DNA of 64,000 bases from contig CAJNOJ010000011.1 of the NCBI GenBank assembly GCA_905250025.1, positions 315,287 to 379,286 of the forward strand, written 5' to 3'. This DNA comes from Adineta ricciae. Its lineage: Eukaryota > Rotifera > Eurotatoria > Adinetida > Adinetidae. Shown here piece after piece: positions 12,446 through 41,883 of the stretch; the stretch's first letter is position 1, and every line of letters begins with the position of its first letter. The position numbers were made by a program, and so were the translations under genes. Under the pieces are notes generated by a model. It saw nothing but the letters and a program-made list of their open reading frames with translations, was not told the origin of the DNA and made no database searches.

Positions 12446-15400
12446 ATGTCCACGAGCGATCAATTAGCTACCCTTGTAACTCAACTGAAAGAACGTCGTG
12501 CCCTTACATTCCAAGACAAGCTCAAATCGTTGGATATTCGCGATGAAATTTGGCGAAAATGTAAGCGTTTTCGAAAAACTTTTCAGTTTACAAGTGAGTT
12601 CTTCCTTAGACATTGATCTTAACAAAGGTTCAACAATCGATGCAACTGCTGCGCAACGAACCGGCTTATGTACCGATATGTGTTGTGAACGAGAGCGGAT
12701 CACTCGGGAATGTCAACGGCTTTTCAATCCCTATGAATTTGATTCGGATACTCGCGCAGTGCGTTCTTTTTAAATTTATCATCATCTTTCAACTTACTAT
12801 TCATTTTTCTCCTAGTTAAACCAATCATTGATGGTCACTCAATATTCTCGTGCATCAGCTGATCAAGTAAGTTGAAATTTACATATTAGTATATTGTCAT
12901 TTTCAAACAATTGTAGGCTATGCCTTCAGCATACGACCTTCGTTCAGGTCCAGTTCTGTTGCAAACGATGAATTATTTGATAACAAATATCATGGACAAA
13001 TTTGATCAGGACCGTGAACAAGCCGATTGGTATAACTTCTTGTGGGATCGTTTACGAGCCATTCGAAAGGTAAGATCAATGATGAATGGTAATTAAACAA
13101 ACAATGGTTTTAGGAAATCACCCAACAACATTTACGTGACGAAACTGCCATCGAAATTCTTGAACAATGTGCACGTTTTCATATATTTTGTTCGGCGTTT
13201 TTATCTGAATATTCTCGTGACGCATTTGATCCTAATTTGAATATGAAAATGTTAATCGATTGTCTCAATCAACTACGTGATTGTTACTTGACACATAAGC
13301 AGCAAAATAATTATCAAGCATTAAAAAATGTCGCCGAATTTTCTTCTTACATGTTACTAATCAACTTAAAGGATGATAATGAAACTCTACTGTAAGATTC
13401 TTGCGATTACTTCATGTTATTTGAGCAAATTCTTTGTATATTTAGACGTATTCGTCGTTTGATTCAGGACATCACTCATATCTCCGAAGTTCAAGTTGCT
13501 TTGAATATTCATCGATCGTTACTGTTGAATAACACGACGAAATTCTTTTCATTAATTGCGAATGAGGCGACATTGTTACAATCCTGCATACTTCATCGAT
13601 ATTTTCACATTATACGTTTAAAACGTCTACATTCATTAGTTGCATCGACACGTCCTGGTCAGGAAATTTCCTTGACGGATTTGACACATATTCTTGGCAT
13701 GGATAACGATGATGAGACGAAAGATTACCTCGAGCAACTGGGATATTCGATAACAGGCACAAGTTCGGGAATGTGTTTTACAACTCCAACGGATAATCAA
13801 AATCAGCAAGAGCAACAACATCCAACCAATAGATTATCTCAGAAATTGGTCAAATCGAAATTTCATGAGAATTTAAAAGATGTAAGTTTGAAAGCCAGTA
13901 TTCAATGATATACAAAATCATGATTTATTGCAAATAGATTATCACTGGTAGATCTGATACGCCAGTTGTGATTCCTGATATAAATGTGGAAGATAGTTTT
14001 GATTTACAAGGATCGTTTATTGGCAAAATCCCGTTCGATATTGACTCATCAAGTAAACCATAGTTTGTATGATAAGAACTCGCATATTGATTTCTAAATT
14101 TCAGTGTCACTCCCGGTACGAAGACCACTACCACCAACTACAACTTCCAACAATACTACAGAATCACGGCCGCAGCAGAAACCAATATCAACAAGAATTC
14201 AACCAGCAGTACCCACTCCACGTCCACTTATGGAGAATGCTCTTCGATCACTAGCATCAACCACAACAGCAAATCCATTTGTAACAACAATTAGAAAACG
14301 TCACCATCAATATTTACTTTTTTTTTATCTCTATAGGCAATGAGTTCTCGTATTATGTCAGCGGGCAATATTTTCGTCACTGCTACATCTACAACAGCAA
14401 CGCCAACCGTTACACAATCACCCTTTCGTTTTGGAGGATTCGGCGTAAACCGAGCGCCTGTTTCACGTTCAGAGTATTCACCCCATACCGTATCTCTCTA
14501 ACTGAATCGAATCTTTTTGAATTTTCTTAGTGCACCTAATCCATTCACGCAATCTACTTTATCTACCAGACTATTTGATTCCAAATCTCAAGCACTAGTT
14601 ACATCTCAACCAACACTTCCGACTTTAAATCCACCAAATCAAGTTATCCGCCATTTACCATCGCCAATCGAACCAGTTCTCGCACCAAATCCACCTCCAA
14701 AAACACCACTCACTAAGCCAGATCTTGTCAAACAACCACCAGTGCTCGCTCCTCCCGTAGCTCGACGACTATCCACGAGTTCCATGGATACATTCATCGA
14801 CGAACTCTATGAACAACTGATCGATCCATTGGTTCAAGAAACGGCATGTCAAATCTTCGAGTAAGTCAAACACAGCAACTTTCTCAAATATTTAATCGTA
14901 ACTTTTTTAAGTGAACTAATCTCCCAATGGAATAAATTAACTACTGAGACAGTTAAAATATTCAATGAACTTCTTTCGGAAGAGATAATCTCGATAGCTA
15001 CTGAATATCACAGTGATATTGCACTCCATGAAAAGATGTACAATGACACAATCATGGAACTATATGAACGCAAACGAAAGAAATATTTAACACGAAAATA
15101 CTTCGTCATTTGGCTGGAAAATTCTCTCCAGGCGAGAGAAGAACGTTTGATTCTTCAAGATTTACAATTAAAATATCATTTTCCAAAGAACGAACAATTG
15201 CTTGAGTTTCTAACTGGACTTCAATTGATTAGCGAACACGATTTAACAGTCGAACAAGCAGCTGACATCCTCAAATCTCGTCGTTACTTGAAACAAACTC
15301 ATTTGAAAACGATCGAACGCTTCTCGACTGACTTGTTCCAAGAACTTCTTCACGATGAATTGCAATCGATCGTTCGTGAATCCAACCAAGAATTGGAACT

Positions 15401-15689
15401 ACGGCAGAAACTGTTGACCAGTTCTCTTGAAAAACAAGCCAAACTCCAACGTGAACGTTATCTTCGGATGAAATACATTTCACTTTGGCTTCGTTACGTT
15501 CGCCGACGTCGAAAGGAACGCCGCGAGAAGTACACGACAAGCAAACGCGTGAACGAATCTGTTCAACGACGTAGTAACAAGAAATTAAAAGAAAATTCGC
15601 ATCAGTATCAAACATTAAAAAGTTCATTCGATCAATTAGCAACTGATCTCAATCAAATTCAATTATTTATAGATAAACTTACTTCTTAA
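12446..15689 (+). CDS. MCM3AP: SAC3/GANP-domain mRNA export factor (MCM3AP-like)
   Basis: Eleven exons are inferred: 12446-12560, 12610-12758, 12816-12866, 12917-13069, 13114-13391, 13446-13881, 13938-14052, 14105-14280, 14337-14473, 14531-14860 and 14912-15689; 905 residues. The SAC3/GANP domain spans about residues 55-440, with family hallmarks GLCTDMCCERER, QYSRASADQ, RSGPVLLQTMNYL, LRAIRKEITQQHL and CARFHIFCSAFL. A Pro/Thr/Gln-rich linker follows with FG-like pieces (FRFGGFG), then a helical, basic C-terminal region. Such proteins scaffold the TREX-2 complex, which links transcription to mRNA export at the nuclear pore. It is shorter than human GANP and I see no acetyltransferase domain. 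The exon 9/10 join uses a weak donor (GTATTC) chosen for phase. The next gene starts 124 bp downstream on the same strand. Confidence 0.88.
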
Positions 15690-15813
15690 ATCTATCTGTT
15701 TTTGCTTTGTCTAATGTAAAAGTGATTTTTTTTGTATAGAAAAGAGAAACCAAACAAACGAGAAGAATCTTTTCTTTCTCAAGATGATAAACATGATATA
15801 ACAATGTGCCATT

Positions 15814-16838
15814 ATGCGATTGTTTAGAAAGAATATGTTCTGGGCGATTCTACTTCAAATCTGTCTGTATTTTGCCATTGTTGCTTTGGTTGCCTATTGG
15901 ATACTTCCATCTCATGTTGATGTTGAGAAATATTTTCACAATAAAGTCGTGTGGATAACGGGTGAGTCAAAGTTGTTGATCATATTTCATAGGTCGTGAA
16001 CATTTCTTTTTTTTAGGAGCATCGTCAGGCATCGGTCGGGAACTTGTGAAACAATTGGCTCGTCGTTCGCCAACAACACGACTGGTTCTGTCAGCAAGAC
16101 GCGAAAATGAGCTACATAATCTTGCTAGAGAATTAAACCTCGATTTCGAACACTGTTTAGTCTTACCATTAGATCTTGAATTACAATACGATTGTTTCAA
16201 ATCGAAAGTTGATCTCGTCCTCGAACGCTTCGGTCAGATAGATATCTTGATAAATAATGCTGGAATATCTCAACGAAGTTTTATCCACGAAACGGGTTAC
16301 AGTGTCGATTCAAGATTGATGAATATCAATTATTTAGGAACAATTACCTTGAGTAAGACAATTCTCCAGGTCAGTCAACAATCATTCAGACGAAGCGAGC
16401 ACGATAGACTTCTTCTTTTAGCATTTCATCGAGCGACAAAAGGGACAGTTTGTTGTGGTGACATCAGCGGCTGGTTATATGGGTTCGGCTCTACGATCCT
16501 CCTATGCTGCTTCCAAACATGCCTTGCACGGCTTCTTCGATTCTCTTCGATTAGAACATGCCCACGATAACATCGATGTGACCATTGTTTGTCCCGGGTT
16601 CGTTCGAACATCGATTTCTCAGAATGCTTTTGTAGGTTCGGGATTACTGTACGGTAAAATGGACCCGAAAACCGAAAAAGGAACTGATCCATCTAAATGT
16701 GCAGATGACATCATTCTTGGCATTGCCAACCGTGATCATGAAGTTTATGTCGGATATTTAGCATCGCCTTTGATTTATCTTCGTCGGTTTTTTCCTCGAA
16801 TACTTCATTTTGTTCTTTTGCGTGTTCAATCGACTTGA
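15814..16838 (+). CDS. DHRS7: Short-chain dehydrogenase/reductase, DHRS7 type
   Basis: Three exons, 15814-15961, 16017-16369 and 16422-16838, 305 residues. The N-terminus is a membrane anchor (residues about 8-31). A classical SDR fold follows: cofactor motif TGASSGIG, structural NNAG, catalytic Ser in VVTSAAGYMG and YAASK with catalytic Tyr and Lys, then CPGFVRT. An arginine just after the glycine motif side (LSARREN) suggests NADPH preference. The protein should be a membrane-anchored NAD(P)-dependent oxidoreductase of the endoplasmic reticulum acting on lipid or retinoid-like substrates; the substrate cannot be told from sequence. A splice acceptor (TTTTTGTATAG) lies about 75 bp before the ATG. 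The PRC1 gene follows only 53 bp downstream. Confidence 0.9.
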
Positions 16839-16891
16839 TTAAGTCTGATAGGTGCAATGTGAGAATAGACTCTTCTTTTCTAGATTAAATC

Positions 16892-19179
16892 ATGACAGAA
16901 ACTCTACCGATCGATTCATTAATGATTGATCGATGGACAAGTCAATGGATGAAACAACTTGGTTTTAATAACGAACAATTACTCAAACGGAATCATAAAG
17001 TCGAACAATTTTCACGAGTAAGTTCGATTCGTAAGCAATGGAATGTGAATGGAATTCTTTCTTAGATACTATTGGAACGCATTCAGAAAAAGAAACAAAC
17101 AGATATCGCTCAACGTGAACAACTACTGATTGAAACTTTACGCGAATATGAACATCGATTGAGTCGAACAGGATTCGATAATGATATCAGTGTAAGTTAG
17201 ATTTGTTGTAAAGTCGGAATTGATTGTGTCTTTGCAGGAAGATTTCGAAACGATGAAATTAAGGCAGAAAGAATTGTTGATCGAAAAAAAGCATCAGGAA
17301 TTAGATGTGAAAGAAGAGCAATTTATTAAAGAACTCGATCAACTGTCTCAAATAGAACGATCTCTATGTCAAATTCTTACAGCAACAGAAATGGAACTTG
17401 TTCCAGGTGAATAAGAATAAGAAAATAAAGCTGTAAATCGTTCAATTGTGCGATTTAGATGAAACCTTAGTCAAACGAATTCAGCGTTTACAAGATTATT
17501 TAACCACACTGGAGAATCTCAAAGTTTGTTATTTAAACAGAGCCTAGCTTTGAGAAAATCAGTTTGATTTCGACTAGAATGACCGAATGATCACGTTGAA
17601 ATCCTATCGAACTCGATTGAACGATTTATGCACTCAGCTTGATTATAAATTAGATGATCAATCAGTTGTAACGCAATTAGTCGACGAGAAATATGAATCT
17701 TGTTTAGCGACGGATTCACTCAGACAAATCGAATGTCTGCTCAATGAGGTATGTTACGATTTCGTCTATTAATGCGATTCATTTTCTCCATTTCAGCTCG
17801 ATGTTAAATACGAAGAACAAGGAAAACATGTTCATAGACTTATCGAAACGTTAGAAAAATTGTATTCAAAATTGACAAAAGATGATGCATCGCCACCGAA
17901 GCGTTCAGCTGCATATATTTTACGACACAATACTGCAGAAACAGTGACGCAAGTAGGAGAAAATCGAACTTTTCTTCTTCAGAATCCAATCCTTATCTTT
18001 TTGTCTTTATCATCGAAGTTAGAACAGGAAATCGCTGATCTACAAGCAAAACGTATGGCAACTAGTAAAGTATACTGTGAAAATTTGCGAAAAAAGATCG
18101 AAGATCTCTACGATCGATGTCAACTTGGTGCATCTGAACGACATACCATTGATTATGGTAGGCTCAGTTTTGTTCCATTAGATATGTTTAGACAATTTCC
18201 AATGTTTAAATCATAGAAAATCTTACGCCAGATACACTCGATGAATGTGATCGAGAATACGATCGTTTAGATGATCTATACCGCATTCGACAACCTATTA
18301 TTGATGCGTATGAACAATGGAGATTACTTGTTCAACAACATGCTGAATTCTTGGTAGATATTTCGTGCGAAAATCTAAATGAATTGTCGAATTTTGTTTG
18401 TTTTATAGAAAAAATCCACGTCAGCAGCACGTTTTCATGAACGCGGATATTCTGCAGTAAAGGAGCAAGCCGAACGAAAACGGTTTGCTATTGCTCTACC
18501 TAAAGCGGAACGAAATTGCTTAAATACACTTGAACAATGGGAGAAGGATCATCTTGACGAACAATTTCTAATCAACGATGTTCCACTACGTCAAATTCTC
18601 GATCAACAACACAATGGAACATCAAACACGACCACAACGGCCACAACAGCGCTAGCACCATCAAAAATAACTAAGACGGTAAGAATTCCCACCAAGATTT
18701 TTGTAAACTTTTCAATCGATCTGTCATAGGTATCGACATCATCAATCAGTTCCATGGCTGTTCCACAACGTACAGTATCGAAAGCAAATGCTCGAAAGAA
18801 ATCTCTTCGTAATCTTGTTAAACAAACCGTCGAATCTCATATGACTCAAAGTCATCACGAAGAAGCGGACGAAGATACACTAGAATTCACTCAATTGGAA
18901 AATATTAAACACATTAACGGATTGCCAAGAGTAAGTTTGACTTGTTCGAATCTAATCCAATTTTGACTTTTCTCGTCGATCAGATTGTGACATCAACACC
19001 AAAAACAGGAAAAAACAATCTACACCAAACCGAACATACTGTTGTCGATATGGGTCGCATCAAAACAAATGATCCCATCCAGAAACATCGTCCGTCCAAA
19101 CGAGTAGTAAGTGTGACGAGTTCCGCGAAATGTCCAAACTAAACATTCATTCCGATTGCAGATTCCAGTACGTCGATGA
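16892..19179 (+). CDS. PRC1: PRC1/MAP65-family microtubule crosslinker, copy A (complete)
   Basis: About eleven exons separated by introns of about 45-65 bp. The protein opens with MTETLPIDSLMIDRWTSQW and is mostly helical coiled coil. The spectrin-like microtubule-binding region is recognisable from family motifs: ENLRKKIEDLYDRCQLG, YEQWRLLVQQHAEFLKKS, FHERGYSAVKEQAERKR, TLEQWEKDHLDEQFLIND. A basic Ser/Thr-rich tail with probable Cdk-type sites (TSTPKTGK) ends in PVRR. PRC1 bundles antiparallel microtubules in the spindle midzone during cytokinesis. The codons ATG ACA GAA (16892-16900) lie just outside the duplicated block, which begins at 16901. The intron after VPG holds stop codons, so the frame breaks there and must be spliced. 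TTCTTTTCTAG lies 9 bases before the ATG. Copy B at 24256 is nearly identical. Confidence 0.85.
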
Positions 19180-19569
19180 ATATGTAAATTGAATTATTCC
19201 TCCTAGTTTTGATCTCATTTGTGAATAAACCTTTTCCTTATTGGTACAATTTGTCAGATTGGTTGATATGATTACATAAATAAAAAAGCACGTTAAATAT
19301 TTGTTCATATTCCTATCTACACAAGTGAATGTTTATTTCAAATCAAAGCTATGTTGTTCGATGTGCTTCTTTGTAATGTCGAGCATTACATGTTTACATT
19401 ACAACAATGCGTTCGCACGAGATGTTCAACATAATATACAAAAAGAAAAGAGCGGACTATCTAGAAAATGAAACGAATCACATTATACTTAGTTCACATC
19501 AAAATCTACACTGTTCTACACAGAACCGGAAAGAAAATGAAGAATGTTTATTAGTGAATCGCGTTTGCA
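19180..19569. other. Convergent intergenic region, copy A
   Basis: It lies between the 3' ends of PRC1 (+) and MAF1 (-). GAATAAAC near 19221 and ATAAATAAAA near 19276 could be polyadenylation signals. No exon seen. The matching region in unit B is 26557-26946. Confidence 0.5.
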
Positions 19570-20535
19570 TTAGCCCATAATTCTAAAAAAACGAAGGTTT
19601 TCATTGCGAAAAATTTATGAGAGAACTTACTCATCGAATGTCATGTAGTTATTTGTATTTAACGAATCACCTTCGTCATTACCTTCATCATTTGTTGCTG
19701 TTTTACAATCAGCTCGGCAAGTAACGAAAAGTATGCGACGAAGTCGCTTGTTATGAAAAAAGAAATTGAATGACCAAATGATTCCAGCTTCAGAAAATGG
19801 ATCAGACGTGCCATCTGGACGATAACTGTAAATCGCAAACGAAAACTTAGTGTCACTTTCTTCTCAAGCATCACAATTACCAATAGATTTCACTTTCTTT
19901 CAGATTGATTTCTTCATCGATTGCTGACCAGAGTTGAGGTGATAACAATCGATAATTATCACCGATCGTAGATAATAAACGCGAATCAACAACATTCTTT
20001 ACAACCTAAACATCGATTTATGTTAACCCAAACCACAAAAGAAATCAACTCGTACTTCTAAATTCATTTCTCGACTAAAATCCTGACTAGTACACGAACT
20101 GAATTCATAATCTGGTTCAAACGATGCATTCAATGTTGATATGAGAAAGATCAATGTTTTCCGTGGGATGGTTTTATACAACGGCGATTCATCATCGCTC
20201 GATATTGAACGAGCAATCGGATTTGGATATGTCACTGGCGGAGGAGAATTTGATAGCATATAATTGTAAATAGGCGATTGAGTTTGAGATGGACCTAGAA
20301 CTTCTAAATCACGTGGTGATGTTCCTGGTTCATTTCGTAGCTGTTTGTACAATTTTTTGGGATCACCTGCCATTTTACATGAGTAACTCTCCACTCTAGT
20401 TTTCAGATGAAAAGTACGTAGATGTTATAGGTATGAAATTGAAAGCGTTTACCGAGTGGTTACATCACAAACCGGTGTTTCAATCGATAGCGTGGAACTA
20501 ATTGCATCGAGCTTGGCATTTTCCAACAATTTCAT
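19570..20535 (-). CDS. MAF1: MAF1, repressor of RNA polymerase III, copy A
   Basis: Exons run from ATG at 20535 ([20 protein letters not shown], then CDVTTR) through an exon from about 20396 ([19 protein letters not shown]), a middle exon with [21 protein letters not shown] and FSREMNLE, and later exons with [11 protein letters not shown], the [17 protein letters not shown] motif and an acidic end (TFDEIMG). These match MAF1, which under stress binds RNA polymerase III and blocks tRNA and 5S transcription. The nutrient-dependent phosphorylation region is replaced by a Ser/Pro-rich insert ([11 protein letters not shown]). The last exon adds only a few codons after an intron at about 19580-19630. 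A TAGATGGCGC motif lies about 140 bp upstream. The gene faces PRC1. Confidence 0.92.
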
Positions 20536-20678
20536 TTTGATTGAGAGATGTTTTGAAGCGCTTGAAAAGAAGTTTGACAATGAATGAAAGTATACAGGAA
20601 TGACAAGGATGTTTTATAGTTTCTTGTTTATTTATTTTTTGCGTGTTGTTGTTTCATTTGACAGCTGACGTGATCTAC

Positions 20679-20689
20679 AGCGCCATCTA
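20679..20689 (-). promoter_or_regulatory. TAGATGGCGCT motif upstream of MAF1, copy A
   Basis: Read on the minus strand, the same strand as MAF1, 144 bp before its ATG. It is preserved in copy B at 28055-28065. It shares its core with motifs at 12206 and 56894. Confidence 0.4.
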
Positions 20690-20896
20690 CAAAAGAACGT
20701 CTCGCCGCCTTTTACTTCTATGCGATAAGATAACACGAACACATTGACTATGTTTGTTCGAGACTGTTTTGATATAGTTGAGAACTGAAGTTCTAGTTTC
20801 TGTTCTTTTGTTAAAATAATGATTATTTATATTAAAATTAACAAAAAATATCAGTCTCTTGAGAACTGTGCGCAGAAATCGTTTTGGAAAGTGAGA

Positions 20897-21313
20897 TTAT
20901 TTTGGTGGTGGTGATGGTTTATGTTCGCGATGGACAAACCAAGCTGGAGCACCAAAAACATGCTTTGGTTTATTTGGATCATCTTCACTTTTCGTTGAGC
21001 TATGTTCACATAATCCATCCCACCAGACTGGCGTTGGATATGCAACTGGTTCTTTACTTTTACGTGTTGCTGGATCAACATGTTGCAATAAATTGTGGCT
21101 GATACCTAATTTACATCGTCGAATGTAATCAGTGTCTGTATCTCGCACATACATGACTCGCGGTTGATTGATAGTTGTTTCATCATCGAATACGCCATTG
21201 AGGTATGGAATTTGTGATGGCGGAGGTGCAGTTACCAATTCCCGGTTGCCCTTTTTCAAAGGCGCATGAACAAACCAAACTTCATCTTCAGGCTTTCGTC
21301 GTAAATAGGACAT
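20897..21313 (-). CDS. Short C7orf57-like protein, copy A
   Basis: A single exon of 138 residues. The segment APPPSQIPYLNG, YVRDTDTDYIRRCKLGI, LLQHVDPATRK and EPVAYPTPVWW follows the order and wording of the conserved N-terminal half of vertebrate C7orf57, an uncharacterised protein linked to ciliated tissues. The C-terminal half of the vertebrate protein is absent; the frame ends in KPSPPPK and a stop. No signal peptide or membrane segment. Copy B (28277-28693) has the same length and differs at only a few residues (for example TTINQPR versus TTANQPR), which supports a real coding gene. The function is unknown. Confidence 0.8.
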   Translation of the reverse strand: MSYLRRKPEDEVWFVHAPLKKGNRELVTAPPPSQIPYLNGVFDDETTINQPRVMYVRDTDTDYIRRCKLGISHNLLQHVDPATRKSKEPVAYPTPVWWDGLCEHSSTKSEDDPNKPKHVFGAPAWFVHREHKPSPPPK

Positions 21314-21436
21314 TTGTACACTTGAAAACGTTCGTTCAAACTAATGTTGATGTTATGTGTCTCGAAGAAGAATAAGTCTAACCATATTTCAAGTTGTTAC
21401 TCTGTGAATAACCTCTAGTGAAATACAATCGATTAA

Positions 21437-21448
21437 TAGATGGCAGTA
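21437..21448 (+). promoter_or_regulatory. TAGATGGCAGTA motif near the C7orf57-like start, copy A
   Basis: A variant of the AGATGGC motif, 124 bp before the minus-strand start codon at 21313 but in the opposite orientation. It is also in copy B at 28814. Confidence 0.25.
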
Positions 21449-21519
21449 GAAAAGTTCTTCGAATGACTTTCAATACTCTTATTATATGAAAAACAAAACA
21501 AGACGATACAAAAGGAAAT

Positions 21520-24248
21520 TCACACAAGGACACTAAGTGAACATAGTTGACACTGTTCAGAACTCATTGACGAAGAGTTATTATCAGTTTTTGACGAGCG
21601 ACAGAGTCGATGGTGATGATTTTGTAGATTAAAGTCATCGTTTAAGATTTCTTGGTAAATGTGATAGTTTTGCCCGTGAATACTCGCCGAGCCCGAGTCC
21701 GTGGACGATGTTCCACTGCTATGATAATGTGTCGGACATGTACACTGTGTGGAGAGACTTGCTTGATAACTAATCGGTCGCAGCTGATGTGGAGGATGAT
21801 AAGATAGAGGAGGTGGTGGTGGTGGTGGTGGAGCTGGGTAGTAGTGTTGTTGAGATTGATTCGACCATGGAATCGTGTTTGTCGGTGTCGGACGAACCAG
21901 TAACGATTCACTTTTCGAATCATTACTTTGATGATACTTCGACGAACGTAAATGACAGAACAATACATATGGACAACGAGAAATAATCAAAATAATACAT
22001 GTGAGCAAGCTTAATACTAAAAGAACACCGAATATCGACCCGATGAGAATACTTTTCGTAGGTTCGTTCATGTACCATAAGGGTTGTTGCTCATCGCGTT
22101 GCTTAGAATCGATAATCAACGATGATTTTAATGTTTGAGTGGAAGTCATTTGTAATTGTTTACAAAACTTCTCATAATTCGTCTTTCGAAGAAGGTATAA
22201 ACAAACTTCGCCTTGTGAAACGTAATCGATTGTATAATTACGTTGTAAACTATCGAGTAATTCGCTCATTTTGTACATTGGAGCATTCGTACTGATCTTA
22301 AATCCATTGATACCATGATGTTTGAAATACCTTCGACGATGTTCAATCGAAGGATTCAAATCGATTGCCGAAGGAGATATCTGCCATTGAAGAAGTAATT
22401 TGGAATTATCAAAATTAGGTGTAACGATTAGATCAGCTATCCGGATTTGTTCCAAAGGAAATTGATCCATGATTGTTGTTGTGATAGTGGTCGACATACT
22501 CGAATAGAATTCTTCTCGACGATCAAGATTATTCACAATTTTTTCCACACTAAAATCAACAACACAAATGTTTCTTTTCATTGTATATCAGTTCTGACCT
22601 ACATTTTCATCACAGTCGTGGTTTCGGTGGGAATAGTGGTGCTGGTCGTCGTCGTCGTCGTTGTTGTTGTTTTTGGTTTCCTCTCGTCATCATTCATGAT
22701 TGTCTTTGTTAGGTAGGTACATTGTGGCGTAGTGATCAAGCTACATGCAAACGGTTCGTTTGGTAGTTCGTTTAAATTAACATTTCGTCGTTCAGGCGGT
22801 GATTCACATTGACCCGAGATCTTCAACTGTCGAAAATTTCGTTCCATTCGACAATCGCAATGCAATGGGTTCTGATCGAGTTCAAGCGTAAGGAGATTCC
22901 GATAGAAATTCAATGCACTGGTGTCAATCGTACAGATCTGATTGCGACGGAGAGATAAGATTTGTAAAGTTTCGTTAAGTTTGGTAAGAAGAGGAAAATT
23001 CTTCAAACTATTATTTCTCAAATCTAAATAAACGAAAATCAATGGAAATTCAGAGGAAATATACGACGCTACCAAGAAATTGTAAATGTGTGTGTTGAAA
23101 TGTGTTCGAATCAATGAATTCAATCTGATTATCGCGAAGATGAAGTCGTTCGAGTGATGGAAGATTCTTGAAGATCTTCTTCTCAAGATTTGCTCCTAAG
23201 AAATTCCCATCGAGATTCAATTGTTTCAACTTTGGAGCATTGATTGGCATCAAGTTCGTCAGCTGATTTCGATCGAGTTCGAGAAGTTCCAAGACCGAAA
23301 AGGTATTTCTGCTCTTCGAAGACAATTTTGTTAATTTATTCGATGATAGAAACAGTTTTTCCAACTGTTCCAATCGTGTAAAAATCGTCAAATCCAATTG
23401 ATTCAATCGATTATTTTTCAATGAAACGATTTTCAGATTTAATGGCAATTGTATCTGATAAATCGATTCCAGACGATTGTAATCCAAATAAAACTCTCGT
23501 AATTGACTTAAATGCACTAGAAATGTCAGTTGTTTCTCGGTGGTCAGTTCATTATTTCGTAAATTTAAAATCTCCAGTTGTGATGAGAGAGATTCAATGA
23601 CATTTTCATCAATGGTTTCAATTCCTAAATAAAAATCGTACTGAACAATCACGACATACGAAAATTCTCACAAACCATTATAGGATAAATCGAGTTCGAC
23701 TAACGAATTCGTTGGATTTGGATTCAACAAGCGAAGATTCAAATGTCGAATCTTGTTTTTACTTAAGATTAAAACTTTCAGTTTTCGAAATGCAGTAAGA
23801 AAAGGAATGTTGAGATATTCCAATCGATTTTCCGATAAATCCAATCGTTCCAAGTTTGGAAAGAGATTCCGAAAACTTTCGATCTCATCCATCTGACTAA
23901 TCGAACATGATTGTAATGCTAATTGAGTTAATTTTCTCATGACTAAACTCTGATTGTGATTTGTCAAATCCGATAAATCAAACGAACGTAACGATAAACG
24001 TTTCAGATTAGGTAATTCGGCAAGAATTTGAAAGAATGTTTGAGATGTCAATTGTGACGTTCGAAGAGTTGTGGAAAGAATGAATTCTTCTAAATAATTC
24101 GCTAGATCAATAAATGCTTGCTGATCAATACGATTGATTGGATTGGATTGCAGTTCGAGTTTACGTAATTTCAAACCATTAAATGCATTCTTATGTACAA
24201 CTGTGATTCGATTACCGGATAGAACAAGTTCGTCAAATATTATATTGC
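21520..24248 (-). CDS. LRR-FnIII-like transmembrane receptor, copy A (first exon missing)
   Basis: Reading from 24248, exons encode about a dozen leucine-rich repeats (for example LELQSNPINRIDQQAF, LERLDLSENRLEYLNI, LELDRNQLTNLMPINA), an LRRCT cap (NPLHCDCRMERNF...CESPPERR), a Thr-rich stretch, a beta-rich domain of about 100 residues resembling fibronectin III (DLIVTPNFDNSKLLLQWQIS...VCLYLLRKTN), one membrane segment (ILIGSIFGVLLVLSLLTCII) and a cytoplasmic tail with a nine-proline run, His and Ser. The layout resembles FLRT-type adhesion receptors. The exon for the signal peptide and LRRNT, present in copy B, is absent because the sequence stops 7 bases into intron 1 at the undetermined base 24255. 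No frame damage is seen in what remains. Confidence 0.8.
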
Positions 24249-24254
24249 CTATAC

Positions 24255-24255
24255 N
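24255..24255. other. Undetermined base at the junction of units A and B
   Basis: A single N lies exactly between the last base of unit A and the first base of unit B. It cuts intron 1 of one LRR gene and abuts codon 4 of the second PRC1 gene. This position suggests a scaffold or haplotype join. Confidence 0.9.
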
Positions 24256-26556
24256 ACTCTACCGATCGATTCATTAATGATTGATCGATGGACAAGTCAA
24301 TGGATGAAACAACTTGGTTTTAATAACGAACAATTACTCAAACGGAATCATAAAGTCGAACAATTTTCACGAGTAAGTTCGATTCGTAAGCAATGTGATG
24401 TTAATGGAATTCTTTTCTTAGATACTATTGGAACGCATTGAGAAAAAGAAACAAACAGATATCGCTCAACGTGAACAACTACTGATTGAAACTTTGCGCG
24501 AATATGAACATCGATTGAGTCGAACAGGATTCGATAATGATATCAGTGTAAGTTAGATTTGTTGTGAAGTCGGAATTGATTGTGCGTTTGCAGGAAGATT
24601 TCGAAACGATGAAATTAAGGCAGAAAGAATTGTTGATCGAAAAAAAACATCAGGAATTAGATGTGAAAGAAGAGCAATTTATTAAAGAACTTGATCAGCT
24701 GTCTCAAACAGAACGATGTCTATGTCAAATTCTTACAGAAGCAGAAATGGAAATTGTTCCAGGTGAGAGTAAGAATAAGAAAATAAAGCTTGGAATCGTT
24801 CAATTGTATGATTTAGATGAAACTTTAGTCAAACGAATTCAGCGTTTACAAGATTATTTAACCATACTGGAGAATCTCAAGGTTTGTTATTTAAACAGAG
24901 CCTAGCTCTGAGAAAATCAGTTTGATTTCGACTAGAATGATCGAATGACCACGTTGAAATCCTATCGAACTCGATTGAACGATTTATGCACTCAGCTTGA
25001 TTATAAATTAGACGATCAATCAGTTGTAACGCAATTAGTCGACGAGAAATATGAATCTTGTTTAGCCACGGATTCACTCAGACAAATCGAATCTTTACTC
25101 AATGAAGTATGTTACGATTCTGTCTATCAATGCGATTCATTTTCTTCGTTGCAGCTTGATGTTAAATACGAAGAACAAGGAAAACATGTTCATAGACTTA
25201 TCGAAACGTTAGAAAGATTGTATTCAAAACTGACAAAAGATGATGCATCGCCACCGAAGCGTTCAGCTGCATATATTTTACGACACAATACTGCAGAAAC
25301 AGTGACGCAAGTAGGAGAAAATCGAACTTTTCCTCTTCGGAATATAATCCTTGCCTTTTTGTCTTCATCACCGCAGTTAGAACAGGAAATCGCTGATCTA
25401 CAAGCAAAACGTATGGCAACTAGTAAAGTATATTGTGAAAATCTACGAAAAAAGATCGAAGATCTCTACGATCGATGTCAACTTGGTGCATCTGAACGAC
25501 ACGCCATTGATTATGGTAGGCTTAGTGTTGTTTCATTAGATATGTTTAGACAATTGTCAATGTTTAAATCATAGAAAACCTTACGCCAGATACACTCGAT
25601 GAATGTGATCGAGAATACGATCGCTTAGATGGTTTATACCGCATTCGACAGCCTATTATTGATGCGTATGAACAATGGAGATTACTTGTTCAACAACATG
25701 CTGAATTCTTAGTAGATATTTCGTGCGAAAATCTGAATGAATTGTCGAATTTTGTTTGTTTTATAGAAAAAATCCACGTCAGCAGCACGTTTTCATGAAC
25801 GCGGATATTCTGCAGTTAAGGAGCAAGCTGAACGAAAACGGTTTGCTATTGCTCTACCTAAAGCGGAACGAACTTGTTTAAACACACTTGAACAATGGGA
25901 GAAGGATCATCTTGACGAACAATTTCTAATCAACGACGTTCCACTACGTCAAATTCTCGATCAACAACACAATGGAACATCAAACACGACCACGACGACT
26001 ACAACAACAGCAGCAGCAGCAGCACTAGCACCATCAAAAATAACCAAGACGGTAAGAATTCCAAGCAAGATTTTTGTACACTTTTCAATCGATCTGTCAT
26101 AGGTATCGACATCATCAATCAGTTCAATGGCTGTTCCACAACGTACAGTATCGAAAGCAAATGCTCGAAAGAAATCTCTTCGTAATCTTGTTAATAAACA
26201 AACCGTCGAATCCCATGTGACTCAAAGTCATCACGAAGAAGCGGACGAAGATACACTAGAATTCACTCAATTGGAAAATATTAAACACATCAACGGATTG
26301 CCAAGAGTAAGTTTTGACTTGTTCGAATCGAATTCAATTTTCACTTTTCTCTTCGATCAGATTGTGACATCAACACCAAAAACAGGAAAACACAATCTAC
26401 ACCAAACCGAGCATACTGTTGTCGATATGGGTCGCATCAAAACAAATGATCCCATCCAAAAACATCGTCCGTCCAAACGAGTAGTAAGTGTGACGAGTTC
26501 CACGAAATGCCTAAACTAAACTTCCATTCCTCTTGCAGATTCCAACACGTCGATGA
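24256..26556 (+). CDS. PRC1: PRC1/MAP65-family protein, copy B (start codon missing)
   Basis: Begins at codon 4 (TLPIDSLMIDRW) directly after the N, so the first three codons, the splice acceptor and the promoter are absent. The rest parallels copy A exon for exon, ending in TRR and TGA. Differences are substitutions and in-frame changes only: an extra codon (LVNKQTV versus LVKQTV) and a longer Thr/Ala run before LAPSK. All splice sites are kept. The intact frame after this divergence implies it evolved as a complete gene, so the lost 5' end is more likely an assembly effect than a pseudogene. See copy A for function. Confidence 0.8.
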
Positions 26557-26946
26557 ATATGTCAATTGAATTATTCCTCCTAGTTTTGATCTCATTTGTG
26601 AATAAATCTCTTCCTTATTGGTACAATTTGTCAGATTGGTTGATATGATTACATAAATAAAAAAGCACGTTAAATATTTGTTCATATTCCTATCTACACG
26701 AGTGAATGTTTATTTCAAATCAAAGCTATTTTGTTCGATGTACTTCTTTGTAATGTCGAGCATTACATGTTTACATTACAACAGTGTGATCGCACGAGAT
26801 GTTCAACATAATATACAAAAGAAAAAGAGAGGACTATCTAGAAAATGAAACGAATCACATTATACTTAGTTCACATCAAAATCTACACTGTTCTGCACAG
26901 AACCGGAAAGAAAATGAAGAATGTTTATTAGTGAATCGCGTTTGCA

Positions 26947-27911
26947 TTAGTCCATAATCCTAAAAAAACGAAGATTTTCATTGCGAAAAATTCACGAGAG
27001 AACTTACTCATCGAATGTCATGTAGTTATTCGTATCTAATGAATCACCTTCCTCGTTACCTTCATCGTTTGTTGCTGTTTTACAATCAGCCCGGCAGGTA
27101 ACGAAGAGTATACGACGAAGTCGCTTGTTATGAAAGAAGAAATTGAATGACCAAATAATTCCAGTTTCAGAAAATGGATCAGACGTCCCATCTGGACGAT
27201 AGCTGTCAATTGCAAACGAAAACTTAGTGTCACTTTCTTTTCAAGCATCACAATTACCAATAGATTTCACTTTCTTTCAAATTGATTTCTTCATCGATCA
27301 CTGACCAAAGTTGAGGTGATAGCAATCGATAATTATCACCGATCGTAGATAATAATCGCGAATCAACAGCATTCTTTACAACCTAAACATCGATTTATGT
27401 TAAATCAAACTACAAAGAAATCAACTCGTACTTCTAGATTCATTTCTCGACTAAAATCCTGACTAGTACACGAACTGAATTCGTAATCCGGTTCAAACGA
27501 TGCATTCAATGTTGATATGAGAAAGATCAATGTTTTCCGTGGGATGGTTTTATACAACGGCGATTCATCATCGCTCGATATTGAACGAGCAATCGGATTT
27601 GGATATGTCACTGGCGGCGGAGAATTTAATAGCATATAATTATAACTAGGCGATTGGGTTTGAGATGGACCTAGAACTTCTAAATCACGTGGTGACGTTC
27701 CTGGTTCATTTCGTAGCTGTTTGTACAATTTTTTGGGATCGCCTGCCATTTTACATGAGTAACTCTCCACTCTAGTTTTCAGATGAAAAGTACGTAGATG
27801 TTATTGGTATGAAAGTGAAAGCGTTTACCGAGTGGTTACATCACAAACCGGTGTTTCAATCGATAGCGTGGAACTGATTGCATCGAGCTTGGCATTTTCC
27901 AATAGTTTCAT
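26947..27911 (-). CDS. MAF1: MAF1, repressor of RNA polymerase III, copy B
   Basis: Same exon structure and start ([14 protein letters not shown]) as copy A. The main coding exon begins at [19 protein letters not shown] and keeps [21 protein letters not shown]. The encoded end is TFDEIMD rather than TFDEIMG. Only minor substitutions separate the copies ([11 protein letters not shown] versus [11 protein letters not shown]). It faces PRC1 copy B. Both copies appear functional by sequence. Confidence 0.92.
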
Positions 27912-28054
27912 TTTGATTGAGAAGTGTTTTGAAGCGCTTGAAAAGAAGTTTGACAATGAATGAAAGTATACAAGAATGACAAGGATGTTTTATAGTTTAT
28001 TGTTTATTTATTTTTTGCGTGTTGTTGTTTCATTTGACAGCTGACATGATCTAC

Positions 28055-28065
28055 AGCGCCATCTA
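28055..28065 (-). promoter_or_regulatory. TAGATGGCGCT motif upstream of MAF1, copy B
   Basis: The same motif and spacing as in copy A (144 bp before the ATG). Nearby bases differ between the copies (for example GACATGATC versus GACGTGATC) while the motif is unchanged. Confidence 0.4.
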
Positions 28066-28276
28066 CAAAAGAATGTCTCGACCGCCTTTTACTCCTGTGC
28101 GATAAGATAACACGAACACATTGACTATGTTTGTTCGAGACTGTCTTGATACAGTTGAGAACTGAACTTGTAGTTCCTCTTCTTTTGTTAGAATAATGAT
28201 TATTTATATTAAAATTAACAAAAAACATCGGTCTCTTGAGAACTGTACGCAGAAATCGTTTTTCTGGAAAGTGAGA

Positions 28277-28693
28277 TTATTTTGGTGGTGGTGATGGTTT
28301 GTGTTCGCGGTGGACGAACCAGGCTGGAGCACCAAAAACATGCTTTGGTTTATTTGGATCATCTTCGCTTTTCGCTGAGCTATGTTCACATAATCCATCC
28401 CACCAGACTGGTGTTGGATATGCAACTGGTTCTTTACTTTTACGTGTTGCTGGATCGACATGTTGCAGTAAATTGTGACTGATGCCTAACTTACATCGTC
28501 GAATGTAATCAGTGTCTGTATCTCGCACATACATGACTCGCGGTTGATTGGCAGTTGTTTCATCATCGAATACACCATTGAGGTATGGAATTTGTGATGG
28601 CGGAGGTGCAGTTACTAATTCCCGGTTGCCCTTTTTCAAAGGCGCATGGACAAACCAAACTTCATCTTCAGGTTTTCGTCGCAAATAGGACAT
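28277..28693 (-). CDS. Short C7orf57-like protein, copy B
   Basis: 138 residues, as in copy A, with only a few substitutions (TTANQPR, SSAKSED). Most nucleotide differences between the copies are silent, the pattern expected under purifying selection. It ends in KPSPPPK. See copy A for family comparison; the function is unknown. Confidence 0.8.
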   Translation of the reverse strand: MSYLRRKPEDEVWFVHAPLKKGNRELVTAPPPSQIPYLNGVFDDETTANQPRVMYVRDTDTDYIRRCKLGISHNLLQHVDPATRKSKEPVAYPTPVWWDGLCEHSSAKSEDDPNKPKHVFGAPAWFVHREHKPSPPPK

Positions 28694-28813
28694 TTATACA
28701 CTTGAAAACGTTCGTTCAAACTAATGTTGATGTTGTGTGTCTCGAAGAAGAAGTCTAACCATATTTCAAGTTGTTACTCTGTGAATAACCTCTAGTGAAA
28801 TACAATCGATTGA

Positions 28814-28825
28814 TAGATGGCAGTG
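28814..28825 (+). promoter_or_regulatory. TAGATGGCAGTG motif near the C7orf57-like start, copy B
   Basis: This is the copy B counterpart of the motif at 21437, differing in the last base. Confidence 0.25.
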
Positions 28826-28898
28826 GAAAAGTTCTTCGAATGACTTTCAATACTCTTATTATATGAAAAAAACAAAACAAGACAATACAAAAGAAAAT

Positions 28899-31856
28899 TC
28901 ACACAAGGACACTAAGTGAACAAAGTTGACACTGTTCAGAGTTTATTGACGAAGAGTTTTTATCAGTTTTTGACGAGCGACAGAGTCGATGATGATGATG
29001 ATTTTGTAGATTAAAGTCATCATTTAAGATTTCTTGGTAAATGTGATAGTTTTGCCCGTGAATGCTCGCCGAGCCCGAGTCCGTGGACGATGTTCCACTG
29101 CTATGATAATGTGTCGGGCATGTACACTGCGTGGAGAGACTTGCTTGATAACTAATCGGTCGCAGCTGATGTGGTGGAGGATGATAAGATAGAGGTGGCG
29201 GTGGTGGAGCTGGATAGTAGTGTTGCTGAGATTGATTCGACCATGGAATTGTGTTTGTCGGTGTTGGACGAACCAGTAACGATTCACTTTTCGAATCATT
29301 ACTTTGATGATACTTCGACGAACGTAAACGACAAAATAATACATAAGGACAACGAGAAATAATCAAAATAATACATGTGAGCAAGCTTAATACTAGGAGA
29401 ATACCGAATATCGATCCGATGAGAATACTTTTCGTAGGTTCGTTCATGTACCATAAGTTTTGTTGCTCATCGCGTTGCTTAGGATCGATGATCAACGATG
29501 ATTTTAATGTTTGAGTGGAAGTCATTTGTAATTGTTTACAAAACTTCTCATAATTTGTCTTTCGAAGAAGGTATAAACAAACTTCGCCTTGTGAAACGTA
29601 ATCGATTGTATAATTACGTTGTAAACTATCGAGTAATTCGCTCATTTTGTACATTGGAGAGTTCGTACTGATCTTAAAACCATTGATACCATGATGTTTG
29701 AAATACCTTCGACGATGATCAATCGAAGGATTCAAATCGATTGCCGAAGGAGATATCTGCCATTGAAGAAGTAATTTGGAATTATCAAAATTAGGTGTAA
29801 TGATTAGATCAGCTATCCGGATTTGTTCCAAGGAAAATTGATCCATGATTGTTGTTGTGGTCGACATACTGGAATAGAATTCTTCTCGACGATCAAGATT
29901 ATTCGCAAAATTTTCCACACTAAAAGCAACACAAATGTTTCTTTTCATTGTATATCAGTTCTAACCTACATTTTCATCACACTCGTGGTTTCGGTGGTGA
30001 TAGTGGTGCTCGTCATCGTCGTCGTCGTTGTTGTTATTAATGGCTTCCTCTCATCATCATTCATGATTGTCTTTGTTAGGTAAGTACATTGCGGTGTAGT
30101 AATCAAACTACATGCAAACGGTTCGTTTGGTAGTTCATTTAGATTAACATTTCGTCGTTCAGGCGGTGATTCGCATTGGCCCGAGATCTTCAACTGTCGA
30201 AAATTTCGTTCCATTCGACAATCGCAATGCAATGGGTTCTGATCGAGTTCAAGCGTAAGGAGATTTCGATAGAAATTCAATGCACTGGTGTCAATCGTAC
30301 AGATCTGATTGCGACGGAGAGATAAGATTTGTAAAGTTTCGTTAAGTTTGGTAAGAAGAGGAAAACTCTTCAGACTATTATTTCTCAAATCTAAGTAAAG
30401 GAAAATCAATGGAAATTCAGAGGAAATATACGAGATTACCAAGAAATTGTAAATTTGTATGTTGAAATGTGTTCGAATCGATGAATTCAATCTGATTATC
30501 ACGAAGATGAAGTCGTTCCAGCGATGGTAGATTCCTGAAGATCTTTTTCTCAAGATTTGCTCCTAAGAAATTCCCATCAAGATTCAATTGTTTCAACTTC
30601 GGAGCGTTGACTGGCATCAAGTTCGTCAGTTGATTTCGATCGAGTTCGAGAAGTTCCAAGACCGGAAAGGTATTTCTGTTCTTCGAAGACAATTTTGTTA
30701 ATTTATTCGATGATAGAAACAATTTTTCCAACTGTTCCAATCGTGTAAAGATGGTCAAATCCAATTGATTCAATCGATTATTTTTTAACGAAACAAGTTT
30801 CAGATTTAATGGTAGTTGCATCTGATGAATCGATTCCAGACGATTGTAATCCAAATAAAACTCTCGTAATTGACTTAAATGCACTAGAAATGTCAGTTGT
30901 TTCTCGTTGGTCAGTTCATTATTCCGTAAATTTAAAATTTCCAATTGTGATGAGAGAGATTCAATGACATTTTCGTCAATGGTTTCAATTCCTAAATAAA
31001 AAATCGTGCTAAATAATCGCGACACACGAAAATTTTCACAAACCATTATAGGATAAATCGAGTTCGATTAACGAATTTGTCGGGTTTGGATTCAACAAGC
31101 GAAGATTTAAATGTCGAATCTTGTTTTTACTTAAGATTAAAACTTTTAGTTTTCGAAATGCAGTAAGAAAAGGAATGTTGAGATATTCCAATCGATTTTC
31201 CGATAAATCCAATCGTTCCAAGTTCGGAAAGAGATTACGAAAACTTTCGATCTCATCCATCTGACTAATCGAACATGACTGCAAGGCTAATTGAGTTAAT
31301 TTTCTCATGACTAAACTCTGATTGTAATTTGTCAAATCCGATAAATCAAACGAACGTAACGATAAACGCTTCAGATTAGGTAATTCGGCGAGAATATGAA
31401 AGAATGTTTGAGATGTCAATTGCGACGTTCGAAGAGTCGTGGAAAGAATGAATTCTTCTAAATAATTCGCTAGATCAATAAATGCTTGCTGATCAATACG
31501 ATTGATTGGATTGGATTGCAGTTCGAGTTTACGTAATTTCAAACCATTAAATGCATTCTTATGTACAACTGTTATTCGATTACCGGATAGAACAAGTTCG
31601 TCAAATATTATATTGCCTATACGATAAAAAAAAGAACAGAACATTGGTTTCGTGTGTGCATAGAAGATGCGTTGAACTTACTGTTGTTAAAACGCGGAAT
31701 ATCGAGCAATTGTTTCCGAGCACAGTAAATATAAACTCGGCCTGTTTCTGTGATTGCACATCGACATTTCGACTGAATATCAAATGGAATTGGACAAGTT
31801 AAGGTCGACTGGATTAGAATGAATATGAAGAGATACGAAATATACTGACTAAACAT
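28899..31856 (-). CDS. LRR-FnIII-like transmembrane receptor, copy B (complete)
   Basis: Starts at 31856 with a signal peptide (MFSQYISYLFIFILIQSTLT) and a Cys-containing LRRNT-like cap (CPIPFDIQSKCRC). Intron 1 runs to about 31617. LRRs, LRRCT (NPLHCDCRMERNF), a Thr-rich linker, the FnIII-like domain, one membrane segment (ILIGSIFGILLVLSLLTCII) and a Pro/His/Ser-rich tail follow; roughly 940 residues. A 50-base intron near 29900-29950 joins the LRR part to the rest; without splicing the frame stops after VMKM. The polyproline run is shorter than in copy A. Such receptors usually act in cell adhesion or axon guidance; no ligand can be named. I see no TIR or kinase domain in the tail. Confidence 0.85.
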
Positions 31857-34654
31857 AACTATCTAGAAAAGAACACACGAAAAATGTTTGATGATGATAA
31901 TGATGTTCGAACTGGTGACAGGATACTTAATCTTGTCATGTTTCTTTTTATTTTCTGCTCATTCGCTTTCCGCTAGTGATTATGAAATAAGCAGGCCGTT
32001 GTGAAGAGTGCTTATTTGCATTAACAAGAGATGGATTTTGACACTGACGCTTATGACTAATTTTGCTCATCGGGTTTCTCTCTCCCTCTCTCTCGCGAGA
32101 CTCGTCACAGAACGATTGGTGCGGAAATCGAAGATGACAGTACCTTTGTCAAATAAGACGCTTGCGAGTAAGTTGTGATTGTATGTTCAATTAGAACGAG
32201 AATAAATAATTGATCGCTAGGAAAAAGAAAGTAAGGAGATGCGCGTGAATGAATGTGTAATGTCCATCAAAGTGAATAATCGGTCAGCAAATGATTACAT
32301 CATTGCGAATATGCATGAATAGATAAACAGAAATTTATCGAGACAAAAATATACAGTTCTTCGCTCTAATTATAGGAAGAAGAAGGATGTCAATTATCTC
32401 TTTCTAGTAAAGAAATGAATGATAAATCTTTATGTATGACATCTTCACACTCGTGGTCAAGCGGCTTCTTCTTGTCCGAAGAAGAAAAAGGAATGTGTCG
32501 ATTAATGATGGCACTTTGGTGTGAAAACGGAAAGAATGCGTACACAGAGAATGTCATTACGTGTAAAAGAAGAAGAAGAAGAAGCATCTTTTTATTCTTT
32601 CTCGAGGGAAAACGAAGAAGAAGGAACAGCTGGAAATCAACTAAACTCATCTTGATGTGTTGATGACGTCCGATTCAGTAAAGAGGGAAAACGAACAGTG
32701 TTGATCATTGTTGTTATTGTTGTTCTGCTTAGCAGGTGGTTGATTTATCTTACATAATATATACGTATTTTTTCTCGACGTTTTTCCTTAACTAGTGAGC
32801 CGTTACGAATAGACACAACTGTGTTGATTAACGAAGGTTTTTCTTTTCTCGACGTGAAAATGATATGATAGATGTGAAAGACCTCAATAACTTTCTAATT
32901 TGTCTAATTATCAGTCTTCGTCTTTACTATTTCTATCGTTAGATAATAAATAGAAAACTAAACTATACTCGAATTAATCACTGATGAAGGTTTACGCATT
33001 GTATCACACAAGGAGATTGTTAACGTCAACTATTTACGCGTATTGTCTTTTGCACTCCCACTGCTAGACATTCATCAGAAGAAATGACGACCACTCGTAG
33101 TCAATCAGTGACAAGTACCTACCGTGTGGACGCAATGCTCACCAGTAAGTAGAGCAAAAGGTTGCATCATGTTAATCGAACTCGACAACGATTGCACTCA
33201 GGAAAGATAATACACTTTTCATTATCTCTCCATGCATTGTCTTCCGAATTAATTCGAAACGTATGTTTCTTTTCATATATGTATGCGTTTGACTTACCTC
33301 TATTGTCATACAATCGAAGAAGTCATTTCCGTTAATGATGACATGTATAATGATCTATGTTTATATATGACTGAATGTATGTGAACTGCAAATGGTGTTA
33401 GCCATTCTCATTCATTCATTTTCATTTCCGTTTAATAATCATGATAATAGAAATTAACATGCGTTCACACACGAGTCTTATGTCTAGTCAAATGTAGATT
33501 TTTCCAATAGAGACGCAATGTGAGACGATGCCTGACCAGTGGTTCTATTCTAATCAAATTGAATCACTAATCCTACATTGTCCCGACTAAAGTCATCGGA
33601 TACTTACAGATAGAGACGAATAACCACAGAACGAGGGATCGGTCAGTTCTGATTGACTACAAATGCAATGATGAAAAAAGAAAAGGTATTTCGAGACTTT
33701 CGCATCATCTTCACGTGTCTTGAGAAAGAAAGGAATAATCAATACTGTAGTCTACGTCGGTCAACATGTCGTCTCTTTTTCTTCTTTCTTTTCGTTCGCT
33801 ATAGTCCTTGATTTTAATAGGTTTTTCATCGACTATTATTATAGCTTTTTACACACACGGATAGTTTCTCTCTCTCTCTCGCTTCGTTCTGTAGGACCGT
33901 TCAATTCAACTCAATGTGTCTAATGTCTTTCTCTTTCTCTGTCTCTTGTTCTATATGTACACATGCATATATTACCTATTTCTTTCTCACTGATGCGCGC
34001 AATCTGCATCGACTATGATTACTTTGATTTTAAGTTTAGATTTTTCTTTCTTTCTCTCTTCTTTTGTCATTGTCATTGTCGTACGATTTAATTATTATTT
34101 TTTTATTTCATTCACTAATAGCTACCGTTAAGAATGAGACAGAGGAGGTCGACAATTGTTCTCTCGTATGTGCAATATTTAGTCGGCAACGATTGTCTAA
34201 TTATCAATTGCTTCTATACTTTGGCAACCATTACACATTTTTTGATGACGTGTGAACCTAGCAAAAGGTTCATTAGATGAAATTTTCAAGGTAAAGCATA
34301 GAAAAAGAATAATACAAGCCTTCAAATTTGAATATAAGTTCTAATTGGATGTACTCAGTATGATCATCTGCTCATTATGATTAAAAGCACGTTCTAACCT
34401 ACTGCAAACATGCACACTTGCTTAAACGATTCTCTTTTGGCCTTAACGGGATGTTTATCATCATCTTCGAACGTTTGTTTTGCTACATATTGATACAAAA
34501 GAAGAAACGAGCTGTGTTTAAGCCTTCTAAACAGATGTGTACGTATATACACATCCATTACTCAACTATATTTATCTATTTTGTCAATAGAGATTCATAA
34601 CAGAAGAAAATCAATTTCGCATTCGCTTTTTTCTTCTCAATGATCAAACAAACT
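31857..34654. other. Long non-coding region between the LRR gene and the inverted repeat
   Basis: About 2.8 kb without a believable exon in any frame, unusually long for this compact genome. It is AT-rich with TC-rich runs (near 32080 and 33870), several poly-T tracts and many short hairpin-capable stretches. It probably contains the LRR promoter. If the kinase exon copy at 34655-34708 is real, this could include its first intron, but I found no later kinase exon here on the minus strand. Confidence 0.5.
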
Positions 34655-34708
34655 TACACTTCCGAAGGTTCCATCGCCCAGTTGCTTGACGATTTTGTAC
34701 TTATCCAT
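34655..34708 (-). pseudogene. Orphan copy of the kinase first exon
   Basis: On the minus strand from 34708 this reads [17 protein letters not shown], identical to the start of the kinase at 35761, and then runs into GTAAGT, a consensus splice donor, where the functional copy continues in frame with GTA CTG CTT. No further kinase exon follows on the minus strand. It may be a truncated copy, an alternative haplotype cut by the assembler or the first exon of a gene with a very long intron. Confidence 0.6.
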
Positions 34709-34847
34709 GAGTAGAAACAATGAACTTATATACGATATCAAATGGAACTAGAGATGAACAATTGTGCAATCAAAATCAGTGTATATCAGTTCATCGAGGA
34801 AGAAGATATTCATCTGAAATATCGAATCATTTAAAAAAAAACAAATA
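34655..34847 (-). repeat. Left arm of a perfect 193-bp inverted repeat
   Basis: The reverse complement of 35622-35814, identical over all 193 bases by eye. It contains the promoter-proximal sequence and first 16 or so codons of the MAK-like kinase gene, in reverse. The inner edge ends at the undetermined base 34848, and about 774 bp separate the arms. Confidence 0.9.
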
Positions 34848-34848
34848 N
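34848..34848. other. Second undetermined base, at the edge of the inverted repeat
   Basis: A single N at the inner end of the left arm, aligning to T at 35621. As at 24255, an N coincides with the boundary of duplicated sequence. Confidence 0.85.
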
Positions 34849-35621
34849 TAATGCAGGTCGGCGAGTGACTTGCTCTCATCAATCACGAAAAGAAGCTTCC
34901 GGGTAGAAAAAGCATCTATTAATGAATCAAGACTATCTTTTGTCAGATACTTGACCGAATAGATATATATGTATTTCTAAATCAAGTGAAGACTGCCCGT
35001 CTGTTCGATGTTTTGTTAATAAACACGTTTGAATGAACTGATAGAAACAAATTGACAAGTGAGCATAGGACAGGATGCTGACCATATGACTCGCATTGCT
35101 AATAGAGCATAACAAAGAAAAAAAAGAACAAATAGACAAATTAAAAAGAGAAAATTGAATGACTTTGAAATGGTACATTAAAGCGAGACAGTGATGAGCA
35201 ACTTTAGAGTTGGGCATCGTTAATTCGAGGCAAAACGTCTTGAAGACTACTTCCGTGATGTACACGAAATATACTAGAAATGGTCGGTTTCGAACCGGAG
35301 TAGCACAATCACATGTGCATTCGATTTAGTCATCAGTATTGAATTTCTATTCACCTGAGTTTTATTGTCTTTCACGAAAATCAAGCAGCAAAAAGAATTC
35401 GTTGTAACGTTTTTCCTGAATCTTTTCACCAGAATAATAGAAAATATGTTCAATCGCTGCAGATGTCGTAGGTGTCCATATGAAGATATTTTATTTTCTA
35501 TTTGTTTATGATTGAATAGTGAGAAAGGTGGAGTAGTGGTAACGCCGTCAATAATGAAGTTGTCGTCGAAGTATGCGTGAGCTAATAAGTGACATTAGAC
35601 GGATTTATATATTATTATTAT
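34849..35621. other. Spacer between the inverted repeat arms
   Basis: No convincing gene. A 110-codon minus-strand open frame at 34933-35265 has no recognisable features. A GTTCGAAAC element near 35288 (minus strand) resembles a tRNA B box, but no cloverleaf could be formed around it. Confidence 0.5.
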
Positions 35622-41821: not shown

Positions 41822-41883
41822 CTAATCTAAAATGAGAATTCCCTTAATACCTCAACTAAATACAATTGTGTCCAACGCGAATT

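Follow-up and report, generated by a model that had tools for sequence, protein, structure and literature searches.

Two four-gene units in tandem on an Adineta ricciae contig are most probably two alleles placed end to end across an assembly gap

The DNA we investigated is a 64-kb window from the bdelloid Adineta ricciae (C11:315287-379286, where C11 denotes the window's contig) in an assembly of 130,461,839 bases and 1033 contigs; positions without a contig name refer to the window. Comparison of the window with itself (megablast) reveals a single long direct repeat, whose two units stand head to tail with 94.8% identity (Table 1). Each unit carries the same four genes, PRC1 on the forward strand followed by MAF1, a DUF5524 gene and an LRR gene on the reverse strand, all identified through Pfam matches to the proteins of unit 2. 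The base exactly between the units is an N, and the only other N in the window is at 34848. When matches longer than 150 bp were listed for 264 kb of C11, the units were the only long direct repeat found; the G+C content of these 264 kb is 36.4%. The first-pass annotation had described adjacent copies of 7354 and 7367 bp that are joined by the N and differ by a few percent. Self-comparison and alignment bear this out, and the global alignment of the units (7335 columns) contains 15 indels and 338 substitutions (4.61%), 260 of them transitions and 78 transversions.

Each unit lacks a piece of one gene that is complete in the other. The PRC1 gene of unit 1 has its ATG, and the PRC1 gene of unit 2 is without its first three codons; the LRR gene of unit 1 consists of exons 2-5 only. 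The homology of the units stops six bases into the intron that precedes LRR exon 2. That copy 1 lacks LRR exon 1 and copy 2 three PRC1 codons had already been proposed, and the alignment and the checked gene model agree with it, as they do with the further claim that the truncated genes carry neither stops nor frameshifts: all four genes are open in both units under our gene models, and the five coding indels between the units (15, 6, 6, 3 and 3 bases) are all multiples of three. The predicted introns begin with GT and end with AG in both units in 18 of 18 cases. A 2-bp deletion at 17409 in the complete PRC1 gene of unit 1, relative to 24765 in unit 2, would give a stop if it were read as exon. 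It falls within a predicted GT-AG intron (52/54 bp), whose counterpart in unit 2 is by chance open, and we rejected a frameshift at this place in favor of the predicted intron. Comparison of the intron region with human PRC1 is a lead rather than a test. In gene prediction, this intron may be taken as an exon in one unit and as an interrupted one in the other. The LRR gene contains a putative membrane-spanning stretch, judged by eye.

Table 1. Features of the tandem, with positions in the window and the evidence for each.
Feature	Position	Strand	Evidence
Unit 1, read as allele 1 and the end of the left contig	16901..24254		7354 bp; self-comparison and global alignment
Single N between the units, interpreted as a scaffold gap	24255..24255		sequence; self-comparison
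Unit 2, read as allele 2 and the start of the right contig	24256..31622		7367 bp; self-comparison and global alignment
PRC1 first three codons, ATGACAGAA	16892..16900	+	only before unit 1; alignment
PRC1 (MAP65/ASE1), unit 2, codon 4 to stop, 12 predicted exons	24256..26556	+	PF03999, E 3.6e-30; gene model
MAF1 of unit 2 (open in unit 1 as well), 5 predicted exons	26947..27911	-	PF09174, E 8.9e-55; gene model
DUF5524 gene of unit 2 (open in unit 1 as well), single exon	28277..28693	-	PF17662, E 1.3e-16
LRR gene exons 2-5, unit 2	28899..31616	-	PF13855, E 1.9e-40; gene model
LRR exon 1 (start codon, N-terminus)	31682..31856	-	only after unit 2; gene model; tblastx match of 31677-31835 to C37

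The divergence between the units resembles that of alleles. Pooled over the four genes (1800 codons), the number of synonymous substitutions per site (Ks) is 0.151 and that of nonsynonymous substitutions (Ka) is 0.0163, with a Ka/Ks ratio of 0.108. The individual Ks values are 0.108 for PRC1, 0.198 for MAF1, 0.198 for the DUF5524 gene and 0.158 for the LRR gene, and divergence amounts to 4.22% in coding and 5.72% in noncoding sequence. For A. ricciae, homologs are reported to have a mean Ks of 0.135 and to differ by a median of 4.55%, and ohnologs to have a mean Ks of 1.27 (Nowell et al. 2018, PMC5916493).

Because bdelloids are described as degenerate tetraploids (PMC7943196), a second, partly collinear block is expected elsewhere in the genome. 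Such an ohnologous block is found on another contig, C37, where C37:369487-390762 corresponds to window positions 11450-38238 with 37-98% amino-acid identity in tblastx pieces. Synonymous sites of C11 and C37 are near saturation, with a proportion of synonymous differences (pS) of 0.70 and a Jukes-Cantor Ks of about 2.0 over 1206 codons, these being the codons of the tblastx blocks, a few of which are counted twice or lie just outside exons. The LRR exon 1 region is matched on C37; PRC1 and the DUF5524 gene have no match of at least 45 bits in the 24 kb of C37 compared, and nucleotide self-comparison of these 24 kb yields the self-match only, without any self-duplication of the block. In the whole assembly no close copy of PRC1 occurs outside C11, the other matches being 34-43% identical. 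The part of the C37 block from the LRR gene to the kinase is inverted relative to SDR and MAF1. Since the Ks between the units resembles that of homologs while the comparison between C11 and C37 gives a pS of 0.70, we infer that the two units relate to each other as alleles and that their ohnolog lies on C37. The first-pass annotation had also allowed for ohnologous copies. This possibility we rejected: an ohnologous pair is marked by high synonymous divergence and low collinearity, as seen near saturation in the block on C37, whereas the units have a Ks of 0.151 and are collinear throughout.

The position of the N is another line of evidence. The 264,000 bases of C11 examined contain four Ns and the 24,026 bases of C37 one, all five of them single, and two further 3-kb loci contain no N. 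The chance that one of the four Ns in C11 falls on a given base is about 1.5e-5 (4/264,000). Three of the five single Ns, including the join at 24255, lie at repeat edges, as expected of contig ends. At C11:251468 a single N stands between two dispersed repeats; 12 matches of the first repeat end one base before it, and 20 of the 23 matches of the second start one or two bases after it, with one starting four bases before it. SSPACE inserts a single n when a gap is negative and no overlap exists. In the description of SSPACE-LongRead, a negative gap is merged when there is an overlap, and a positive gap receives one or more Ns (PMC4076250). We interpret the join at 24255 as a scaffold gap.

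The window's second N (C11:350134) is the end of the left arm of a perfect 193-bp inverted repeat (34655-34848 and 35622-35814), which contains the 5' end and the initial codons of a gene judged by eye to be protein-kinase-like. Beyond its other end the left arm departs from the right arm at a GTAAGT. The repeat resembles a further artefact at a contig end or, alternatively, a small inverted duplication.

In an old tandem, decay should be visible in the LRR gene of unit 1, which is without its start and N-terminus. This gene contains no stop, against 2.7 expected at the noncoding rate, and together with the PRC1 gene of unit 2 it has no frameshift, against an expectation of 7.9 based on noncoding indels nearby (7 of the 10 are not multiples of three). 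With changes polarised by C37, the branch of the headless LRR gene has 7 nonsynonymous and 15 synonymous changes and that of the intact gene 8 and 24, a further 20 changes between the copies being unpolarised. A neutral model with transition bias predicts 67% nonsynonymous changes, more than the headless copy shows (P = 0.0007), and no difference is seen between the two branches (Fisher P = 0.76). This indicates that the headless LRR copy stays constrained. The PRC1 gene of unit 2 is weaker evidence on decay because an in-frame ATG is the eighth of its remaining codons. The earlier argument that headless genes in a real tandem would be free to decay thus stands for the LRR gene, which is constrained and without stops, and is weak for PRC1; a recent real join between homologs is untouched by it.

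Searches of the whole assembly with three stretches near the units (9001-16900, 31623-39500 and 50001-58000), each of which listed its own place, returned an allelic copy elsewhere for none of the three. Their other matches are to C37, at 66-77% and, in a single piece of 54 bp, 83%, to a local 198-bp inverted repeat, and, in three weak cases, to other contigs at 68-74%. A fourth stretch of 8000 bases, left out of the three, contains dispersed repeats at its bases 3714-7025, with no second match listed for its other bases. In the assembled sequence, the rest of the locus looks haploid.

The distribution of differences along the alignment adds a minor argument. The longest identical run, of 140 bp, stands exactly at the start of the overlap, and the second longest, of 134 bp, lies one difference and 49 bases from the alignment's very end. 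With the differences placed at random (390 intervals between differing columns, empty ones included) a start run of this length has a P of 0.0005. These runs fit contigs that end near the point where the alleles become alike.

We consider it very probable that the tandem is a heterotype false duplication, that is, two alleles of one block set end to end across an assembly gap; rather than a new structure in the genome, the feature is most likely a commonplace error of assembly. The animal would carry two alleles of the block that are about 5% different. The assembler would have made one contig from the left flank and allele 1, reaching to 24254, and another from allele 2 and the right flank, beginning at 24256. 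The two would overlap by about 7.4 kb of the same chromosome region and would have remained unmerged because the alleles differ by about 5%. From long-range links the scaffolder would then have placed the second contig after the first; with a true gap of about minus 7.4 kb and no matching overlap found, one N would have been written. Read coverage over the units should be half, and each real chromosome would most likely have a single block, in which neither PRC1 nor the LRR gene is truncated. The first-pass annotation had favored a tandem of two haplotypes, and this interpretation is the best supported one, given the N on the join, the allele-level divergence, the absence of allelic copies for all three nearby stretches and the constraint on the LRR gene. 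A heterotype pair has a gap between its copies on the same scaffold, here the single N at 24255, and its copies differ as haplotypes do, as the units do in Ks, in Ka/Ks and in coding indels whose lengths are all multiples of three.

Some observations weigh against this interpretation. Not every single N is explained, as two of the five have no repeat found alongside: at C11:231310 there is no match between the 15 kb to the left and the 15 kb to the right, and at C37:387546 self-comparison, the only comparison made there, found no repeat beside the N. A search with unit 2 failed once to list the query's own place, so the absences of copies elsewhere are supportive and not proof. The signal of the start run is weakened by circular shifts, 189 of 7385 of which reach 140 bp, although this control is confounded in that the two ends of the alignment become neighbors. 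Finally, the published A. ricciae assembly differs in its metrics from the one analyzed here, having 174.5 Mb and 4125 scaffolds, with a similar G+C content of 35.6% (PMC5916493); an alternative assembly of the species is also mentioned in the literature (PMC11258130).

The main rival is a recent real tandem, in which a break at the right end of the block in one homolog was joined to a break at its left end in the other. Alleles 1 and 2 would then adjoin on one chromosome, allelic divergence would be expected, decay would not be expected yet, and the N would only mark a stretch that the assembler failed to close. This explanation predicts the same anatomy and divergence, and there are reports of homologous blocks in tandem on a single scaffold, two in A. 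ricciae and two in the 2013 assembly of A. vaga (PMC5916493). However, many of the collinearity breaks in that report span scaffold gaps by its own account. A true junction, moreover, would be unique sequence that reads can span, leaving no reason for an N to fall exactly there; a real tandem is recognized by a determined, contiguous junction, and the junction base here is an N. We regard a recent real tandem as improbable. An old tandem duplication whose copies diverged in place would also give head-to-tail units with 95% identity on one contig, but we consider it more improbable still: its truncated copies would have been released from selection, yet the headless LRR gene is as constrained as the intact copy and has no stop or frameshift, and the divergence is like that reported for homologs. 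The least probable explanation is a homotype false duplication, in which the same allele was assembled twice with sequencing errors. It too leaves a gap between tandem copies (PMC8081667); however, the differences between the units are biased toward synonymous changes and toward transitions (260:78), and the five coding indels are multiples of three, which would not be expected of errors. We rejected a duplication through sequencing errors on this pattern of changes.

If the units are two alleles joined by the assembly, an annotation of this contig would count four genes twice, two of the copies being apparently truncated. The region also offers a convenient allele pair for measuring divergence. 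Elsewhere in the genome, the RdRP family (PF05183) is matched 95 times at exon level, across many contigs, which is high for an animal, and it is absent from 14 control genomes. Bdelloids have many RdRP genes. Copies of this family are treated under the expansion of genes that silence transposable elements (PMC7943196). Two pairs of RdRP pieces stand in the same order and strand on one contig, about 11.9 kb apart at C314:29585-31160 and 41516-43274, and about 73.5 kb apart at C118:188966-190359 and 262460-263844. Both pairs are candidates for further joins of alleles in tandem or for real tandem duplications.

Among known systems, the closest in the same species are the linked homologous blocks of Nowell et al. 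2018 (PMC5916493), who reported only two in A. ricciae (ARIC00305 and ARIC00659), both of them tandem. They suspected that at least some of the breaks that span gaps arose from errors of scaffolding. The likeness of our locus to these blocks and to those of the 2013 A. vaga assembly is that homologous blocks stand in tandem on one scaffold; our assembly has another size and another number of scaffolds. Heterotype false duplication itself was described by Rhie et al. 2021 (PMC8081667) and Ko et al. 2022 (PMC9516828). As in the account of Rhie et al., the ends of allelic contigs would overlap and have been scaffolded in tandem, although the divergence of about 5% at our locus exceeds the 1.6% heterozygosity given for their most heterozygous genome. 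Ko et al. showed haploid depth and discordant links for their cases. In their NPNT case, one copy is without 5' exons and the other without 3' exons on either side of an assembly gap. The pieces lost here belong to two different genes, and the likeness lies in the adjacent copies, separated, as in the cases of Ko et al., by an assembly gap.

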